Part shown: positions 228 through 8,287 of the stretch, in pieces
How positions within the stretch are numbered: the first letter of the stretch is position 1
Layout: each line of letters opens with the position of its first letter
Assembly (NCBI GenBank): GCA_003455235.1
Contig: DMRT01000261.1
Location: forward strand, 1-12,693
DNA: 12,693 bases
Direction of reading: 5' to 3'
Origin: Chitinophagaceae bacterium
Lineage (GTDB): Bacteria > Bacteroidota > Bacteroidia > Chitinophagales > Chitinophagaceae
The notes under the pieces: generated by a model
The model's database searches: none
What the model was told of the DNA's origin: nothing
Seen by the model: the letters and a program-made list of their open reading frames with translations, nothing else
Translations under genes and position numbers: made by a program

Positions 228-266
228 TCATTAACCTTAATTAACCTTATACCAATATTGATTAAC
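228..266 (+). promoter_or_regulatory. direct-repeat operator upstream of the outer-membrane barrel gene
   Basis: Two perfect tandem copies of the 10-mer ATTAACCTTA lie at 230-239 and 240-249. A third, imperfect unit (ATTAACTGCC) begins at 261, so TTAAC starts fall at 231, 241 and 262 (10 and 21 bp apart, one and two helical turns). Bases 228-249 are identical to the reverse complement of 6055-6076 in the GLPGLI/kinase intergenic region. Same-face direct repeats are the usual target layout for OmpR-family regulators, and one is encoded at 7595-8287. A weaker ATTAAC also occurs at 217-222, out of phase (13 bp). Binding by that regulator is inference. Confidence 0.7.
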
Positions 267-288
267 TGCCTTTGCAGGCCATGGCTGA

Positions 289-296
289 TATTTTTG
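289..296 (+). promoter_or_regulatory. -7 promoter element (TATTTTTG) of the barrel gene
   Basis: TATTTTTG matches the Bacteroidetes TAnnTTTG consensus and predicts transcription starting near 300, about 17 nt before the ATG at 317. There is no TTTG at the usual -33 spacing; the third TTAAC unit of the operator (262-266) occupies that place, the layout expected of an activator-dependent promoter. The spacing from that unit to the -7 element (27 bp) is the same as at the GLPGLI promoter. Confidence 0.65.
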
Positions 297-316: not shown

Positions 317-3112
317 ATGAAATATCTCATTTTTGTACTCGGACTTTTGTTCTTATCCATCACCATCGCGTCGGCCCAGAAGAGCGGACTTACCCTGAAA
401 GGCCGGCTGGCCGACAGCCTGCAAAAGCAGCGGGTAAGCGAAGCCACCGTTTCACTGGTGAAAAGCTCCGACTCCTCCCTGGTAGGATTTACCCGAACCG
501 ACTCGGTTGGCCGTTTCAGTTTCCATAACCTGAACCCCGGTAAATACCGTCTTTCTGCTTCACAGGTAAACTTTCATCCGCAATGGGTGAATGTTGAAAT
601 AGCCGGCGATCTTGACCTTGGTTCAGTACTGATGAAAGATAAATCCATTATGGAAGAGGTAACGGTAAAAGCCCAGCGTCCGCCCGTGGTAGTGAATGGT
701 GATACACTCGAGTTCAATGCCGAATCGTTTAAAACAAAGCCCAACGCTGTGGTGGAAGACATGCTGAAAAAAATGCCGGGCGTGGAAGTGGAGAAAGACG
801 GCAGCATCAAAGTGAATGGAAAACGCATCAGCCGGGTACTGGTGAACGGCCGCGATTTTTTCAACGGCGACCCCAAGATGGCAACAAGAAATCTGTCTGC
901 TGATGCCATCGATAAAGTGCAGGTATTTGAAAAGCCATCCGATCAATCGGAGTTCACCGGCATCGACGACGGGAATAAAACCCCCACCATCAACCTGAAA
1001 TTAAAAAAGGATAAAAAGAACGCCGCCTTCGGCAAAGCCAGCCTGGCTGCAGGAACCAAGGACCGTTACGACGGGCAGTTCAACATCAATAAATTCAACG
1101 GCGATCAGCAGCTCTCAGCCATCGGCATGGCCAACAACACCAACCGCCAGGGTTTTTCCATTATGGACATGCTCAACTTCAGCGGCCAGTCGAGGAAGAT
1201 GATGAGCGGTGGCGGCGCCCGCATTGTGATCAACAACGAAAACGATGATGAGTTCGGCCTGCCTGTTGCCGGCATTAACAACAGCCAGGGCATTACGCAA
1301 ACCATTGCCGGAGGATTGAACTATAACGATGTGTGGAAGAAGAAAACCGACGTGAACGCCAGCTATTTTTATAATAATCTTACCCTGGATAACACCCGCA
1401 ACACCACCCGGCAGAATATACTCCCCGGGAATGAATTCACCTACCTGCAGAACAGCAGTACCCGGAATAAAACCAGCAGCAACCGATTTAACTTCAGCGT
1501 AGATCATAAGATCGACTCCTTCAATTCCATCAAACTGAGTTCCGTGTTTGGGTACCAGAACGGAAACAATGAAAAAAAGAACGACTATCAGTCGCTGGTG
1601 CCGGGTGATAAAATGCTGAACAACGGGTTTTCCAACACCCGCAACTCCACCGAAGGATATGTAACCAGCCAGGAGCTGCTGTACCGGCATAAGTTTGGCA
1701 AGAAAGGAAGAACCCTGTCGCTTACCGGCAATATGCAGTACAACGACAGCCGCGGACGCGGAGCGCAGAATGCCATTAATAATTTTTATAACAATGGTAA
1801 TATCGACCGGCGTGATACACTGGACCAGCAAACAACACTCAACAGCCTTACGCAGAGCTACGGAGTGAATGCCAGCTATACCGAACCGTTGAGCAAGCGT
1901 TCCCTGCTTGAGTTCAGGGGCTTTTACAATACCAGCATGGGCATTCTTAACCGGAAGACATACGACTATAATAAAGTCAGCGATAAGCACGACAGGCTGA
2001 ACAAAACGCTGAGCAATGCCTTTGAGAACACCTATAACTATATGGGAGGCGGGGTGAGTGTACGTGCGCAGCAAAAGAAATACGGCTACAGCGTTGGGGC
2101 AAACCTGCAGTATGCGGAACTCAACAGTCACCTCAAAGACAGCGCCTTCCGGGTGAAGCAGCACTTTACCAACCTGCTCCCCATCGCCAACTTCAATTAT
2201 AATTTCTCCCGTACCAAAACATTACGGCTGGATTATTCCACCTCCACGTCGCAACCAACAGCCAAACAGCTGCAGCCGGTGCAGGATATCAGCGATCCGC
2301 TCAATGTTATTGCAGGAAACCCGGAGCTGAAACAATCCTACACCCATACGGCAAGCCTGCAGTTCTTTAATGCAATACCTGCACAGCAAAAAAACCTGTT
2401 CGTATTCCTGAATTATACGGCATTAGCCAATGCCATTGTGTACAGCGACCAGATCACTGCATCCGGCGCCCGTACCAGCATGCCCGTGAACGCAAACGGG
2501 GTGTACAGCCTCAATGCAAATGTTGACCGCGGCTTCCGGATCAAGAAACTCAATACCCGGGTGGATGTTGGGCTGAATGCCGGCTACAACCAGTCGGTGA
2601 ACTTTATTAATAATGCCAAAAACAAAACCAGAACGCTTTCCGTAATGCCGCGTATCAATGCAGGCTACAGTTACAAAGAACTGCTGGAGCTGAACATTGG
2701 CGCACGGGTGAGCTACAACAATGCCCGGTATTCTTTACAGCCATCGCTTAATAATAATTACTGGCGCCAGGTATACGAAATGGATGCCACCCTTAACCTG
2801 CCTGCCGGTATTACGGTGGGTACCGAGTTCAGCTACAGTGCCTATACCGGCCGCAGCAACGGGTACAACACCCGTATTGCCTTGTGGAATTCATCCATCA
2901 GCAAACAGGTACTGAAGAGTAAGAAAGGGGAGGTTAAACTCAGCGCATTTGACCTGCTGAACCAGAACATCGGGGTGGACCGGAACGGGAATTCCACCTA
3001 CGTGGAAGACGTACAGTACAAAACACTGCAGCGCTATTTTACACTTGGGTTTACTTACAGTTTGCAAAAAGCGGGCAGTGGAGGCCCAAGGGCTGTGATC
3101 AGAACATTCTAG
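317..3112 (+). CDS. TonB-dependent-receptor-like outer-membrane beta-barrel protein with carboxypeptidase-like N-terminal domain
   Basis: The 931-aa product starts MKYLIFVLGLLFLSITIASAQ, a clear signal peptide. I chose the ATG at 317 over the in-frame TTG at 272, which would add 15 residues ahead of the signal and overlap the -7 element. Residues about 25-105 form a carboxypeptidase-regulatory-like beta-sandwich (GRLADS...VSLV...D..GRFSF..L.PGKYRLS). Residues about 113-235 resemble a TonB-receptor plug (VVVNGDTLEFNAESF, VVEDMLKKMPGVEV, VNGRDFFNGDP). The rest, rich in alternating aromatic and Asn/Ser strands, is an outer-membrane barrel ending in phenylalanine. This is the 'outer membrane beta-barrel family' type that often accompanies GLPGLI genes. 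The substrate is unknown; transport versus structural or peptide-uptake roles cannot be told apart. It has its own promoter and a terminator at 3134-3167. The repeat at 228-249, shared with the kinase operon region, suggests control by that system. Confidence 0.9.
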   Translation: MKYLIFVLGLLFLSITIASAQKSGLTLKGRLADSLQKQRVSEATVSLVKSSDSSLVGFTRTDSVGRFSFHNLNPGKYRLSASQVNFHPQWVNVEIAGDLDLGSVLMKDKSIMEEVTVKAQRPPVVVNGDTLEFNAESFKTKPNAVVEDMLKKMPGVEVEKDGSIKVNGKRISRVLVNGRDFFNGDPKMATRNLSADAIDKVQVFEKPSDQSEFTGIDDGNKTPTINLKLKKDKKNAAFGKASLAAGTKDRYDGQFNINKFNGDQQLSAIGMANNTNRQGFSIMDMLNFSGQSRKMMSGGGARIVINNENDDEFGLPVAGINNSQGITQTIAGGLNYNDVWKKKTDVNASYFYNNLTLDNTRNTTRQNILPGNEFTYLQNSSTRNKTSSNRFNFSVDHKIDSFNSIKLSSVFGYQNGNNEKKNDYQSLVPGDKMLNNGFSNTRNSTEGYVTSQELLYRHKFGKKGRTLSLTGNMQYNDSRGRGAQNAINNFYNNGNIDRRDTLDQQTTLNSLTQSYGVNASYTEPLSKRSLLEFRGFYNTSMGILNRKTYDYNKVSDKHDRLNKTLSNAFENTYNYMGGGVSVRAQQKKYGYSVGANLQYAELNSHLKDSAFRVKQHFTNLLPIANFNYNFSRTKTLRLDYSTSTSQPTAKQLQPVQDISDPLNVIAGNPELKQSYTHTASLQFFNAIPAQQKNLFVFLNYTALANAIVYSDQITASGARTSMPVNANGVYSLNANVDRGFRIKKLNTRVDVGLNAGYNQSVNFINNAKNKTRTLSVMPRINAGYSYKELLELNIGARVSYNNARYSLQPSLNNNYWRQVYEMDATLNLPAGITVGTEFSYSAYTGRSNGYNTRIALWNSSISKQVLKSKKGEVKLSAFDLLNQNIGVDRNGNSTYVEDVQYKTLQRYFTLGFTYSLQKAGSGGPRAVIRTF

Positions 3113-3178: not shown

Positions 3179-4018
3179 ATGACAACCCAGGATGCTATAA
3201 AACCCGTTATACACAACATTACCATTTACCCGGTGAAATCGCTCGACGGCATTTCATTGCAAACAGCACAGGTGGTAAAGGGCGGCTGTCTCAGGCACGA
3301 CCGGGAATATGCAATTGTGGATGCCGAAGGAGATTTTGTAAATGGTAAATCCAATGCCCTTGTACATACCCTGCGTTCGGAGGTTGATCTGCAGCAAGAG
3401 CGCATCTCTTTCCGCCATGAACCGGAACAGGCATGGAATTCATTTCATTTGCAGGATGAAGCAAACCGCATCAATGATTATTTATCCGGCATCTTTCACA
3501 CACCGGTGTCTCTAATAAAAAATTCGGAAGGACGGTTCATGGATATCCCCGATAAAGCAGGCCTTACCATTCTTTCTGACGCCAGCTTACAAACCGTTTC
3601 AGGCTGGTTTAATAATATGAACCTGGAAGAAACAAGGCAACGCTTCCGGGCTACCATCGAAATCAGCGGGGTGCCTGCCTTTTGGGAAGACCGGCTTTTT
3701 GCAGAGCAGGATGTAATGGTTGAATTCATGGCAGGAGATGTTCGCCTGTATGGAGTTAGTCCGCGTGCACGGTGTGTGGTACCCACCCGCCATCCCCGAA
3801 CCGGGCAAGTGATTCACGCCTTCCCGAAAACATTTGCAAAACACCGGGCAACAGACCTGCCTTCCTGGTCCATGCTGGAAGCGTATGGACATCATTATTA
3901 TCTCACTGTAAATTGTTATATCCCTCCCACGCAGGTTGACAAATGGATATCAGTGGGCGATGAAATACATCTTACCGGGAATGTACATCCCAATATTTTC
4001 AAAGATTCTGACTGGTAA
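3179..4018 (+). CDS. MOSC domain-containing protein (YcbX/mARC-like core)
   Basis: The 279-aa cytoplasmic protein has the two-part layout of the mARC/YcbX group. The N-terminal MOSC_N-like barrel (about residues 10-115) opens with the typical IYPVKSLDG and GG.L..DREYAIVD segments. The MOSC domain (about 130-270) follows and contains RFRATIEISG (155-164) and PRARCVVPTRHPRTG (195-209). Cys199 sits where members of this family bind the molybdenum cofactor, so a Moco-dependent reductase of N-hydroxylated or related substrates is the family-based expectation. The C-terminal 2Fe-2S ferredoxin domain of E. coli YcbX is absent, so a separate electron donor would be needed. The canonical RFRPN motif reads RFRAT here. 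It stands alone between terminators and has no obvious link to its neighbours. Confidence 0.85.
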   Translation: MTTQDAIKPVIHNITIYPVKSLDGISLQTAQVVKGGCLRHDREYAIVDAEGDFVNGKSNALVHTLRSEVDLQQERISFRHEPEQAWNSFHLQDEANRINDYLSGIFHTPVSLIKNSEGRFMDIPDKAGLTILSDASLQTVSGWFNNMNLEETRQRFRATIEISGVPAFWEDRLFAEQDVMVEFMAGDVRLYGVSPRARCVVPTRHPRTGQVIHAFPKTFAKHRATDLPSWSMLEAYGHHYYLTVNCYIPPTQVDKWISVGDEIHLTGNVHPNIFKDSDW

Positions 4019-5247: not shown

Positions 5248-5967
5248 TTAATTTGTTACAATCCGTACCGGGCCATTGCCCATTAATTCTTTTTGTTTGG
5301 CAATAAAATCACTGTGAGAGATCTTCTTTCCTTTAACAGGCGCTTTAATATTCTTCCTGTCCACTTTCTTGTCGATCGTTTTGGCGGTAAAAACAATTTC
5401 ACCTTTATTGGCATCAATGCCCAGGATCATCCCGGGTAATCCGTTGAACTGCTCGGGTCCCGAAGCAACCGGGATCTCTTCGGTGTACCAGGCCACCACA
5501 TCAGTGCCCCGCGATGTTCTGCCGCTTGCTTTTTTACAGGCATAGCCCAGGATGCTTTTTGTTTCGCCCTCCTCCAGTTTCCAGGCCATGCTGCGGATGG
5601 AATCTTCCACCAGGTACAGCTCGTCCATCAGTTCCCGTATCTCCACAGCTTTTTGTGTACCGAAGTTGCGGTAATATACATTCTCCCCGCTTCCGCCCAT
5701 GCGTATCACCAGGCCACCGCCATTGTTCTGTTCGGTCATATCCGGTTCTTCTTCCACGGATTTGTACAGGCTTTGGTTATCGGCAAAATACAATTCAAAC
5801 TTTGCCGTACGGAACTGGGGTACCATCGACCGCAGCTGCTGGTTTTCCTCGGGAATGCGGCGATACATATCCACCGTTTGCTCGTACGTGATCTTTCCTT
5901 CTTTTACCTGGGCTGTTGCCGTTTGCAGGAACAGGAAAGCCGCGGATACAGTTATTAGTTTTTTCAT
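5248..5967 (-). CDS. GLPGLI family exported protein
   Basis: The 239-aa protein begins MKKLITVSAAFLFLQTATAQ, a signal peptide of about 19-20 residues. The diagnostic motif of the GLPGLI family (TIGR01200) is at residues 176-181, as GLPGMI, in the conserved setting VVAWYTEEIPVASGPEQFNGLPGMIL (158-182). Upstream is the family's W.L..E.K.ILGYACKKA block (129-147). The function of the family is unknown; members are periplasmic or envelope proteins of Bacteroidetes often encoded near the type of outer-membrane barrel found at 317-3112. The gene is divergent from the kinase operon. Its promoter has the same operator and spacing as the barrel gene, so co-expression with the barrel is likely. It ends at the bidirectional terminator at 5197-5229. 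Family assignment is firm; role is not. Confidence 0.92.
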   Translation of the reverse strand: MKKLITVSAAFLFLQTATAQVKEGKITYEQTVDMYRRIPEENQQLRSMVPQFRTAKFELYFADNQSLYKSVEEEPDMTEQNNGGGLVIRMGGSGENVYYRNFGTQKAVEIRELMDELYLVEDSIRSMAWKLEEGETKSILGYACKKASGRTSRGTDVVAWYTEEIPVASGPEQFNGLPGMILGIDANKGEIVFTAKTIDKKVDRKNIKAPVKGKKISHSDFIAKQKELMGNGPVRIVTN

Positions 5968-6007: not shown

Positions 6008-6015
6008 CAAAACTA
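6008..6015 (-). promoter_or_regulatory. -7 promoter element (TAGTTTTG) of the GLPGLI gene
   Basis: Read on the minus strand, TAGTTTTG matches TAnnTTTG. It predicts a start near 6004 and a leader of about 37 nt to the ATG at 5967. It starts exactly 27 bp after the third TTAAC unit (6042), as at the barrel promoter (262 to 289). Confidence 0.65.
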
Positions 6016-6036: not shown

Positions 6037-6076
6037 GGTTAACCAGCCTTTCATTAAGGTTAATTAAGGTTAATGA
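6037..6076 (-). promoter_or_regulatory. direct-repeat operator in the divergent GLPGLI / kinase intergenic region
   Basis: On the minus strand, ATTAACCTTA occurs twice in tandem (6074-6065 and 6064-6055). A third unit, TTAACC, starts at 6042, giving starts at 6073, 6063 and 6042 (10 and 21 bp apart). This copies the arrangement at 228-266 before the barrel gene, and 22 bases (6055-6076) are identical to 228-249. The plus-strand repeat also lies upstream of the histidine kinase promoter, at about -40 to -60 from its likely start. One site could thus serve the GLPGLI gene and the regulator's own operon. Confidence 0.7.
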
Positions 6077-6102: not shown

Positions 6103-6110
6103 TAGCTTTG
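6103..6110 (+). promoter_or_regulatory. -7 promoter element (TAGCTTTG) of the kinase/regulator operon
   Basis: TAGCTTTG matches TAnnTTTG and ends 7 nt before the ATG at 6118, predicting a leader of only a few nucleotides. No TTTG is found at -33 spacing, which fits dependence on an activator bound at the repeat upstream (6055-6074). Confidence 0.6.
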
Positions 6111-6117
6111 TCGGGTC

Positions 6118-7608
6118 ATGAATAAGTTACGCACCGCACGGATCCTGATGGCTGCCACCATCCTGCTCATCATCGGCTTCCAGGTATACTGGATGCGGAA
6201 GCTGTATAGGGAAGAGATCACCGGGTTTAAAAAATCCACCGATATCATTTTCCGGGATGCCATGTACCGCCTGCAGGCGCAGCGTTTTTCGGGCGATACC
6301 CTGGCGCTGCGGGGTGGACTGGAAGACAACCTTTTCATGGCCGACTTCATCAGCAGCGTGGAAAAAATAAAAGGAGGCGACAGCCTGAAACAGCGGCTGG
6401 TGATTTCTATGGATACCCATTCCGAAAAAATGGTTTCTCCGGAAGAAAGGGTTGCCGGAAAAAAAGAAAAAGATACCGTCGTTTATGTGTCCACCAAAAA
6501 GGGCGACATACCTTCTCCCCAGCTGGCGGAAGCGCTGATAAAAAACAGGAACCTGTCTGATTCCATCCCGGTAAAAACAGTGGATTCAATGTACCGGGCC
6601 CTCCTTTTAAAAGAGGGCGTTTCGGTAAACTTCACTATCATTAAAACAAACCCCACCCTCATTGCCACCGATTCGGGAGGAAAAAACCGGTTTACCATCA
6701 AGCTGGAGGAGCCCATGGGTGCTTTTTCCACCAAGCGGGTTCCGGTAGGCTTGATGAAACCCGTATTTTACCGGGCCGAATTTTCTGATCCCGGGTTTTA
6801 TGTATTTAAGAAGATGAGCATGCAGCTGCTGTTATCTGTCCTGCTGATCGCCCTCACCGTTCTTTCTTTTGTGTTTATTTACCGCAACCTGCTGGCACAA
6901 AAAAGATTAACCGATATAAAAAATGAATTCATCGGCAACATCACCCATGAACTGAAAACACCCATTGCCACGGTAAGCGTAGCCATCGAAGCCATGAAAA
7001 ACTTCAACGCCCTGCAAAATCCCGAACGCACGCAGGAATACCTGGGCATTGCCGGACTGGAGCTGAACCGCCTCTCCCTGCTGGTGGATAAAGTACTCCG
7101 TCTTTCCATGTTCGAAAAACAACAGCTGGAAATGAAATTTGAATGGTTCGACCTGAAAGAGCTGGTAAAAGAAGTAACGGCTTCCATGCAGCTGCAGTTT
7201 GAAAAAACAGGCGCCGCTGTTAAACTTGATTTTACGGGGGATGATTTTTCATTGATGGCAGACCGTATGCACATCAGCAGCGTGGTGTATAACCTGCTGG
7301 ATAATGCACTTAAATACAGCACGGCAAACCCGCAGATAGAAATTTCCGTGGAAGCCGGTGAAAATGAAATGCTGTTGAAAGTAAAAGACAATGGCATCGG
7401 CATACCGGCGGCCTACAAAGAAAAGATCTTCGATAAATTCTTCCGGGTGCCGCACGGGGATAAGCACAATGTAAAGGGATACGGGCTCGGACTGAGCTAC
7501 GTGGCGCATATCATTGCCGAACACAAGGGAAGTATCACAGTAGACAGCGGCCAAGAAAAAGGAACCACATTCGTCATTAAACTACCCAAAGAAAATGGCC
7601 GGAGTTAA
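6118..7608 (+). CDS. membrane sensor histidine kinase
   Basis: The 496-aa kinase has a first transmembrane helix (about residues 9-25), an extracytoplasmic sensor region of about 205 residues (28-233) with no recognised ligand-binding fold, and a second helix (about 235-256). The HisKA segment carries the H-box EFIGNITHELKTPIA with phospho-acceptor His277. The ATPase part has the N-box VVYNLLDNALKYS (389-401), G1 KDNGIGIP (423-430), F-box FDKFFRVP (438-445) and G2 GYGLGLSY (454-461), so all catalytic motifs are intact. The start at 6118 gives a basic N-terminus before the first helix. The response regulator gene overlaps its 3' end by 14 nt, so the two should be translationally coupled and form a cognate pair. 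The layout resembles Bacteroides RprX. The signal sensed is unknown; envelope stress or barrel substrate are guesses from the neighbours. Confidence 0.95.
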   Translation: MNKLRTARILMAATILLIIGFQVYWMRKLYREEITGFKKSTDIIFRDAMYRLQAQRFSGDTLALRGGLEDNLFMADFISSVEKIKGGDSLKQRLVISMDTHSEKMVSPEERVAGKKEKDTVVYVSTKKGDIPSPQLAEALIKNRNLSDSIPVKTVDSMYRALLLKEGVSVNFTIIKTNPTLIATDSGGKNRFTIKLEEPMGAFSTKRVPVGLMKPVFYRAEFSDPGFYVFKKMSMQLLLSVLLIALTVLSFVFIYRNLLAQKRLTDIKNEFIGNITHELKTPIATVSVAIEAMKNFNALQNPERTQEYLGIAGLELNRLSLLVDKVLRLSMFEKQQLEMKFEWFDLKELVKEVTASMQLQFEKTGAAVKLDFTGDDFSLMADRMHISSVVYNLLDNALKYSTANPQIEISVEAGENEMLLKVKDNGIGIPAAYKEKIFDKFFRVPHGDKHNVKGYGLGLSYVAHIIAEHKGSITVDSGQEKGTTFVIKLPKENGRS

Positions 7609-8287
7609 AATCTTATACATGGAAGACGAGCTCTTCCTGGGAAAAATTGTAAAAGAAAGCCTGGAAAGCCGCTCGTACCAGGTGATCATGGAAGCGGATG
7701 GGGGCAAAGCCTTCCCGTTGTTTCAGCAGCACAATCCCGACATCTGCGTGCTGGATGTAATGCTGCCCAATAAAGATGGTTTTGCCATTGCCGAAGAGAT
7801 CCGAAGCATGAATGCCGAAGTGCCCATCATTTTTCTCACTGCCAAAACACAAACCGAAGACCTGGTGAAGGGATTTAAAACCGGGGGTAATGATTATATC
7901 CGCAAACCGTTCAGCATGGAAGAACTGATTGTGCGGATTGAAAACGCACTTCGTTACAAAAACGGGGAGAAAAACACCGATGACAAAAAGGACATTGTAA
8001 AGATCGGCAAGTACACATTTCACATGAATCACCAGGTACTGAAAAACAACGGCGATGAACGAAAGCTTTCTTTCCGGGAAAGTGAGTTGCTGAAAGTGCT
8101 GTACGAGAACCGGGATAAAATTGTTGACCGCCGCGATATCCTGAACCTGTTATGGGGCAATGATAATTTCTTCAACTCCCGCAACCTCGACGTATACATC
8201 ACCAAGCTCCGCGGCTATTTAAAAAGCGATACCCGGCTGGAGATCATTACCATCAAGGGGATTGGGTACCGCTTTGTTACCGAATAA
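7595..8287 (+). CDS. OmpR-family response regulator, RprY-like
   Basis: The 230-aa regulator has a receiver domain (about residues 4-118) with the acidic pocket E10/D11, phospho-acceptor Asp54 (CVLDVMLPNKDG), Thr82 (FLTAK) and Lys104 (YIRKPF). A winged-helix Trans_reg_C domain (about 131-228) follows, with KLSFRESELLKVL, NLDVYITKLRGYL and IITIKGIGYRF. The sequence runs close to Bacteroides RprY as I remember it. The ATG lies inside the kinase gene (14-nt overlap). It probably binds the TTAACC direct repeats at 228-266 and 6037-6076: the 10-bp repeat pitch fits an OmpR-type dimer on one face of DNA, and one site lies upstream of its own operon. No terminator follows; its stop is 2 bp from the convergent FG-GAP gene's stop. 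Confidence 0.95.
   Translation: MAGVKILYMEDELFLGKIVKESLESRSYQVIMEADGGKAFPLFQQHNPDICVLDVMLPNKDGFAIAEEIRSMNAEVPIIFLTAKTQTEDLVKGFKTGGNDYIRKPFSMEELIVRIENALRYKNGEKNTDDKKDIVKIGKYTFHMNHQVLKNNGDERKLSFRESELLKVLYENRDKIVDRRDILNLLWGNDNFFNSRNLDVYITKLRGYLKSDTRLEIITIKGIGYRFVTE

Follow-up and report, generated by a model that had tools for sequence, protein, structure and literature searches.

To our knowledge, few operators of classical two-component systems have been described in the Bacteroidota, a phylum in which the promoter recognized by the primary sigma factor is unusual. The PhoP boxes of Bacillus subtilis and the PhoB boxes of Escherichia coli are built of tandem direct units ∼11 bp apart; they sit just upstream of the −35 region or overlap it, and they are read head-to-tail by regulators of the OmpR/PhoB family.

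The nearest published case is PhoP of the PhoPR system of Riemerella anatipestifer, and the novelty of what follows is therefore limited. According to the available text of that study (PMC9603813), PhoP binds sites whose most conserved bases are TTTAACA, and one stretch of 35 nt that it binds is located upstream of its own operon. Among the targets listed are genes for GLPGLI proteins and for outer-membrane barrels; when PhoP was lost, levels went up for two GLPGLI genes that it binds and for one barrel gene, and down for three further GLPGLI genes. This system is apparently the RAYM_RS09735/09740 pair mentioned in the accessible part of PMC5399024. For HaeSR (PG0719/PG0720) of Porphyromonas gingivalis, the available texts report that the regulator binds its own promoter (PMC3764172) and that two GLPGLI genes are among the changed transcripts (PMC8757827); the sequence TTAAC was not found in the main text of either paper. 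A further system for comparison is RprY of Bacteroides and Porphyromonas (NF051850), for which PMC3646045 makes no mention of TTAAC, a motif, a consensus, a binding site or a footprint.

The locus considered here lies in a window of 12,693 nucleotides (the whole stretch of DNA that was analysed) from a Chitinophagaceae bacterium. Two of its promoters carry the same operator. The first precedes a gene for an outer-membrane beta-barrel protein with CarboxypepD_reg and OMP_b-brl_3 domain matches (317..3112, plus strand), whose likely start is the ATG at 317, preferred over the mechanical TTG at 272. This operator copy (231..266, plus strand) has TTAAC units at 231, 241 and 262, and 27 nt from the last unit comes the −7 box TATTTTTG (289..296, plus strand), a spacing kept in orthologues. 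The second copy (6038..6073, minus strand; units at 6073, 6063 and 6042) occupies the intergenic region between a GLPGLI family gene (5248..5967, minus strand, start at 5967; TIGR01200, 166 bits vs a cut-off of 50) and a divergent operon (6118-8287, plus strand) of a sensor histidine kinase (6118..7608, plus strand) and an OmpR/PhoB-family response regulator (7595..8287, plus strand). The −7 box of the GLPGLI promoter, TAGTTTTG (6008..6015, minus strand), is also 27 nt from the last unit.

An earlier note on this DNA had placed the units at these coordinates and the TAnnTTTG starts at 289 (plus strand) and 6015 (minus strand), all exact on re-checking. Its intervals of 10, 21 and 27 in both copies were borne out, as were the 22 identical first bases, the shared stretch being TCATTAACCTTAATTAACCTTA. 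It had left unnamed the operon that probably encodes the regulator, beside site 2.

Some other features of the window deserve a mention. At 218-222 an extra TTAAC precedes unit 1 of the barrel site by 13 nt, out of phase; there is none in the 60 nt preceding the site of the nearest relative (L048). Between the barrel and GLPGLI genes lies a MOSC-domain gene (3179-4018) for which no match was found in the seven neighbourhoods compared, L048 included, and L048 keeps both of its neighbours. The remaining genes are two unassigned ORFs, an FG-GAP/ASPIC-UnbV protein and a PAP2-like protein.

Is this arrangement kept in related organisms? Within the genus sample, 6 of 93 genomes, the own genome included, have a kinase match at E≤1e-100. 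The pattern is far from absent at these orthologous loci: all six carry the operator at 10/21/27 at the GLPGLI promoter, and five carry it at the barrel promoter too, the contig of the sixth (L049) ending inside the barrel gene. The bases between the units vary among these loci, and those between the later units are also unlike in the two window copies. Thirty-six genus genomes entered both the kinase and the pattern searches, and the four with a kinase homologue are exactly the four with the N16 pattern (4/4 vs 0/32); one genome (G014) has an N15 match only. A locus taken for its weaker kinase match (L053), where no GLPGLI or barrel match was found, has units at 10/20 upstream of the kinase and TAATTTTA 27 nt on. 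L054, which belongs to a different family of the order, shows 10/21/27 and a box with one mismatch.

A broader comparison took loci by the kinase alone, with no use of the operator: among 198 genomes of the order, kinase matches at E≤1e-70 turned up in 28, at 29 loci in all, of which two (the own genome and G018) were known beforehand and four share DNA with the loci of the scan described below. Three exact units at 10/21 are present in 26 of the 29; in L210 and L213 the units are at 10/20, and L214 is without the last unit. The distance from the last unit to the box is 27 nt in 19 loci and 26 or 28 nt in two (26-28 nt in 21/29), and it is 16-17 nt in four (L191, L193, L195 and L200). Three loci have no following box, and L214 falls outside this count. 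The 16-17 and 27 nt classes are one helical turn apart, as would be expected if the bound protein kept to one face of the helix and touched the polymerase. The direct half-sites, one helical turn apart (0/10/(20)/31), are as in a tandem operator of the OmpR/PhoB family, and the constant position of the downstream half-site beside the core promoter (27 nt, 19/29) is as in a class II activator-dependent promoter. These comparative spacings support the idea, already in the earlier note, that one regulator would contact one DNA face beside RNA polymerase.

The exact pattern followed by TANNTTYG was also searched in the contigs of GTDB genomes, which returned at least 117 stretches with 121 sites among these. 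The titles of 116 of the stretches listed name Bacteroidota, assigned by reading the names; the other is from Nostoc and has neither a kinase nor a regulator match. At the 121 sites among the matches listed, the downstream gene is GLPGLI in 47, a barrel in 26, another gene in 32 and none in 16; the expected placement before barrel or GLPGLI genes is thus found at 73 sites and not at the remaining 48. At 71 of these 121 listed sites, the kinase lies on the divergent side. A first subset of the matches listed (80 loci, 84 sites) gives agreeing counts: GLPGLI 33, barrel 19, other 21 and none 11 downstream; kinase divergent 47; kinase or regulator match 56, none 28. From these 84 listed sites, 73 downstream ORFs were scanned (the other 11 sites have no ORF of ≥50 codons within 200 nt), 34 of which match TIGR01200 and 16 OMP_b-brl_3. 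Outputs other than GLPGLI and barrel proteins often have a start resembling a secretion signal (L093, L106, L117, L132, L138, L141 and L153), and the output protein of L093 has no match in Pfam or NCBIfam.

The scan modifies one feature of the operator. Three units had been claimed, and the three TTAAC units are real; the full form, however, has four, since 27 of the 121 sites among the matches listed have a complete TTAAC at +20, as in TTAACACTTTTTAACATTTGTTAACGGAGTTTTAAC. Judged from these sites, the complete operator is one of four units (0, 10, 20, 31), the third having decayed in the window copies to ACCAA (251-255, plus strand) and TGAAA (6053-6049, minus strand).

The scan also bears on the other side of the operator. 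A divergent TAnnTTYG lies 27-29 nt from unit 1 in 68 of the 121 sites among the matches listed, and in 58 of the 71 listed sites where the kinase is the divergent gene. In the 84-site subset of the matches listed, distances of 27, 28 and 29 nt occur at 15, 14 and 22 sites, and any other distance within 100 nt at two sites at most. The window has such a box, TAGCTTTG (6103..6110, plus strand), 29 nt from unit 1 and ending 7 nt before the ATG of the kinase; with this second TAnnTTTG box facing the kinase operon, site 2 is probably shared by two promoters pointing in opposite directions. The first possible kinase start follows the divergent box by 3-9 nt in 26 of the 43 sites measured among the matches listed (43 of 56, as 11 had no box and two no start; some starts are GTG). 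With the start this close the message would be leaderless or nearly so, which suggests a leaderless or nearly leaderless kinase mRNA at many sites, and possibly a leaderless kinase operon in the window. On the output side, the ORFs begin at a median of 23 nt from the box (73 ORFs, sites among the matches listed).

Which protein reads the operator? The regulator encoded at 7595..8287 combines a receiver domain (PF00072, E=1.4e-24) with a Trans_reg_C winged helix (PF00486, E=2.1e-17), as OmpR/PhoB-family response regulators do. Its best NCBIfam match is RprY (NF051850) at 246.9 bits; this is below the curated cut-off of 370, so membership of that equivalog was rejected. The organisms named among its 120 listed relatives are Ferruginibacter or Chitinophagaceae. 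By position, co-occurrence and domain type, it is the best candidate for the reader. Residues of its recognition helix and wing tend to change with the operator class: loci with the decayed unit have N197 in 22/28, L198 in 23/28 and K221 in 23/28, vs S197 in 11/11, M198 in 8/11 and H221 in 9/11 of the loci with a full third unit, a co-variation that may be shared ancestry. Its best match in Chryseobacterium pennae (42% identity) is encoded with a kinase beside an exact operator and box (L218, L176), which lends indirect support to a putative relationship of the window regulator with PhoP of Riemerella.

By its layout, the element appears to be a further tandem-repeat operator of the OmpR/PhoB kind, and that kind is already known. 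It differs from the boxes of B. subtilis PhoP and E. coli PhoB in the sigma factor, in its spacings of 10/10/11, and in its reference element, which is here the −7 box (TAnnTTTG) recognized by the sigma factor of the Bacteroidota. Riemerella PhoP, as presented in the available text (PMC9603813), is alike in being an OmpR-family regulator of the Bacteroidota, in the TTTAACA of its motif, and in having GLPGLI and barrel genes among its targets, as predicted here. That text reports 583 DAP-seq peaks, a broad in-vitro set, whereas the own genome here has two sites; and it describes the PhoP sites without unit spacing, a fixed TAnnTTTG distance or a two-sided promoter. HaeSR is alike, in the portions available, in binding its own promoter, as predicted for the window regulator, and in affecting GLPGLI genes, but its regulon is haemin acquisition. 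Searches of open-licence papers gave no prior description of the promoter geometry.

Taken together, the data make it very probable that both sites are operators of the 7595-8287 regulator, which would activate the barrel and GLPGLI genes as a class II activator and autoregulate the kinase operon. The phosphorylated regulator would bind head-to-tail along a single DNA face, to four direct half-sites TTAAC at 0, 10, ∼20 and 31. With TAnnTTTG 27 nt downstream of it, the last half-site would set the last subunit against RNA polymerase with the primary sigma factor, and it is this placement that would make the protein a class II activator. At site 2, the operator also has on its other side, at 29 nt, the −7 box that belongs to the kinase-regulator operon, and would in this way provide for autoregulation. 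This explanation draws on sequences, spacings, gene order and conservation, and from them we infer binding, activation, the sign of autoregulation and the signal. It had also been claimed that the third unit takes the place of a missing −33 box. The spacing does fit an activator beside the core promoter; the −33 argument itself is weak, because F. johnsoniae is another case in which no −33 motif was identified, according to the accessible part of PMC7366714. TTTG starting −28 to −21 before the TA occurs at 0/84 sites among the matches listed, a figure to be read with the fact that the last unit itself largely fixes those bases.

Could the same regulator repress instead? The last unit sits where polymerase would contact the −33 region, and a bound protein could block it at both promoters or at one. 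An exact distance to the −7 box is seldom required of a repressor site, and for this reason the constancy of the 27 nt in 19/29 loci, and the single turn by which the other main class is closer, count against repression. The Riemerella deletion, in the text available (PMC9603813), speaks for both sides: two GLPGLI genes that PhoP binds rose together with one barrel gene, as repression predicts, and a further three GLPGLI genes fell. Activation is not assured given these mixed effects, and repression is nevertheless unlikely.

Distinctly less probable still is a reader encoded elsewhere, with the adjacent two-component system merely a target. The barrel promoter is kilobases from the kinase, and binding by the adjacent regulator is a prediction from sequence. 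Moreover, the surrounding block of ≤8 kb has a kinase or regulator match at 79 of the 121 sites among the matches listed and none at 42, though some of these 42 listed sites are barrel promoters or cut blocks. Against it stand the co-occurrence of kinase and operator in the genus (4/4 vs 0/32 genomes) and in 26/29 loci of the order, together with the recognition-helix residues of the adjacent regulator, which tend to vary with the operator class.

Very little can be said for the core TTAATTAA as the palindromic site of a dimeric repressor, with the direct repeat incidental. The palindrome is inside both window copies and in 38 of the 94 decayed-unit-class sites among the matches listed, but it is missing from the other 56 and from 26 of the 27 four-unit sites listed, and for the latter reason it was rejected; the direct repeats are present in all scan sites by choice of pattern.

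Last is chance. The three-TTAAC pattern occurs twice in the window, against a mean and maximum of 0 in 200 dinucleotide shuffles. No further copy of it was found in the own assembly (2.62 Mb, 68% complete), nor of the form with the box at ≤3 mismatches. The loose form (no box, N15-17) occurs near the chance rate, with 17 matches vs 12 of the reversed control in 59 related genomes. When the pattern with the box was searched in 15 genomes at ≤3 mismatches, the matches with 0-1 mismatch, 12 in number, all fell at this gene cluster, and those with 3 mismatches, 7 in number, all fell outside it; 12 matches came from the reversed control. Since loose and three-mismatch matches are close to the reversed control, only the full, near-exact form is informative, and the specificity of the pattern comes from the spacing and the box. 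Chance or a recent duplication copying one promoter is the least credible reading of all: the two window copies do share 22 identical bases, and those of L048 are likewise alike in this stretch, but units plus box are expected 9e-9 times per window from base composition, the sequence between the later units is unlike in the window copies, and the copies of L050, L051 and L052 differ in the 22-base stretch with spacings unchanged, for which duplication was rejected. The operator shared by the two promoters is real and strongly conserved.

The activating, autoregulated operator may be one instance of something older, a view to which we lean slightly: an old promoter cassette of the Bacteroidota, with a four-unit operator between divergent TAnnTTTG boxes at nearly fixed distances, whose outputs would have been exchanged between lineages as the geometry stayed constant. 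One side would drive the often leaderless kinase-regulator operon, and the other GLPGLI proteins, barrels, other secreted-looking proteins and, in some Flavobacteriales, a terminator-ended small RNA. Concerning the latter, in L081, L105, L126 and L136 the operator promoter facing away from the kinase precedes ∼100 nt without an ORF, with a conserved CTGTTTAGTTAGTGCAA (its first base is T in L105) and a terminator-like hairpin; L150 and L109 are loosely similar. This stretch is a candidate for a small RNA controlled by the regulator. Its fold z-scores are −1.0 to −3.8 (six sequences), it has no Rfam match at the gathering score, and its tag was found in 0/395 genomes sampled across the phylum. 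In 13 loci plus the window, Rfam matches were limited to a tRNA and a SAM-I/IV riboswitch.

Because the site is strictly spaced, widespread in the phylum and linked to one pair of genes, it offers a direct route to regulon prediction. It also lets one study how activation could compensate for a weak −33 element, and it gives a way to look for a signal and a function of the GLPGLI proteins.
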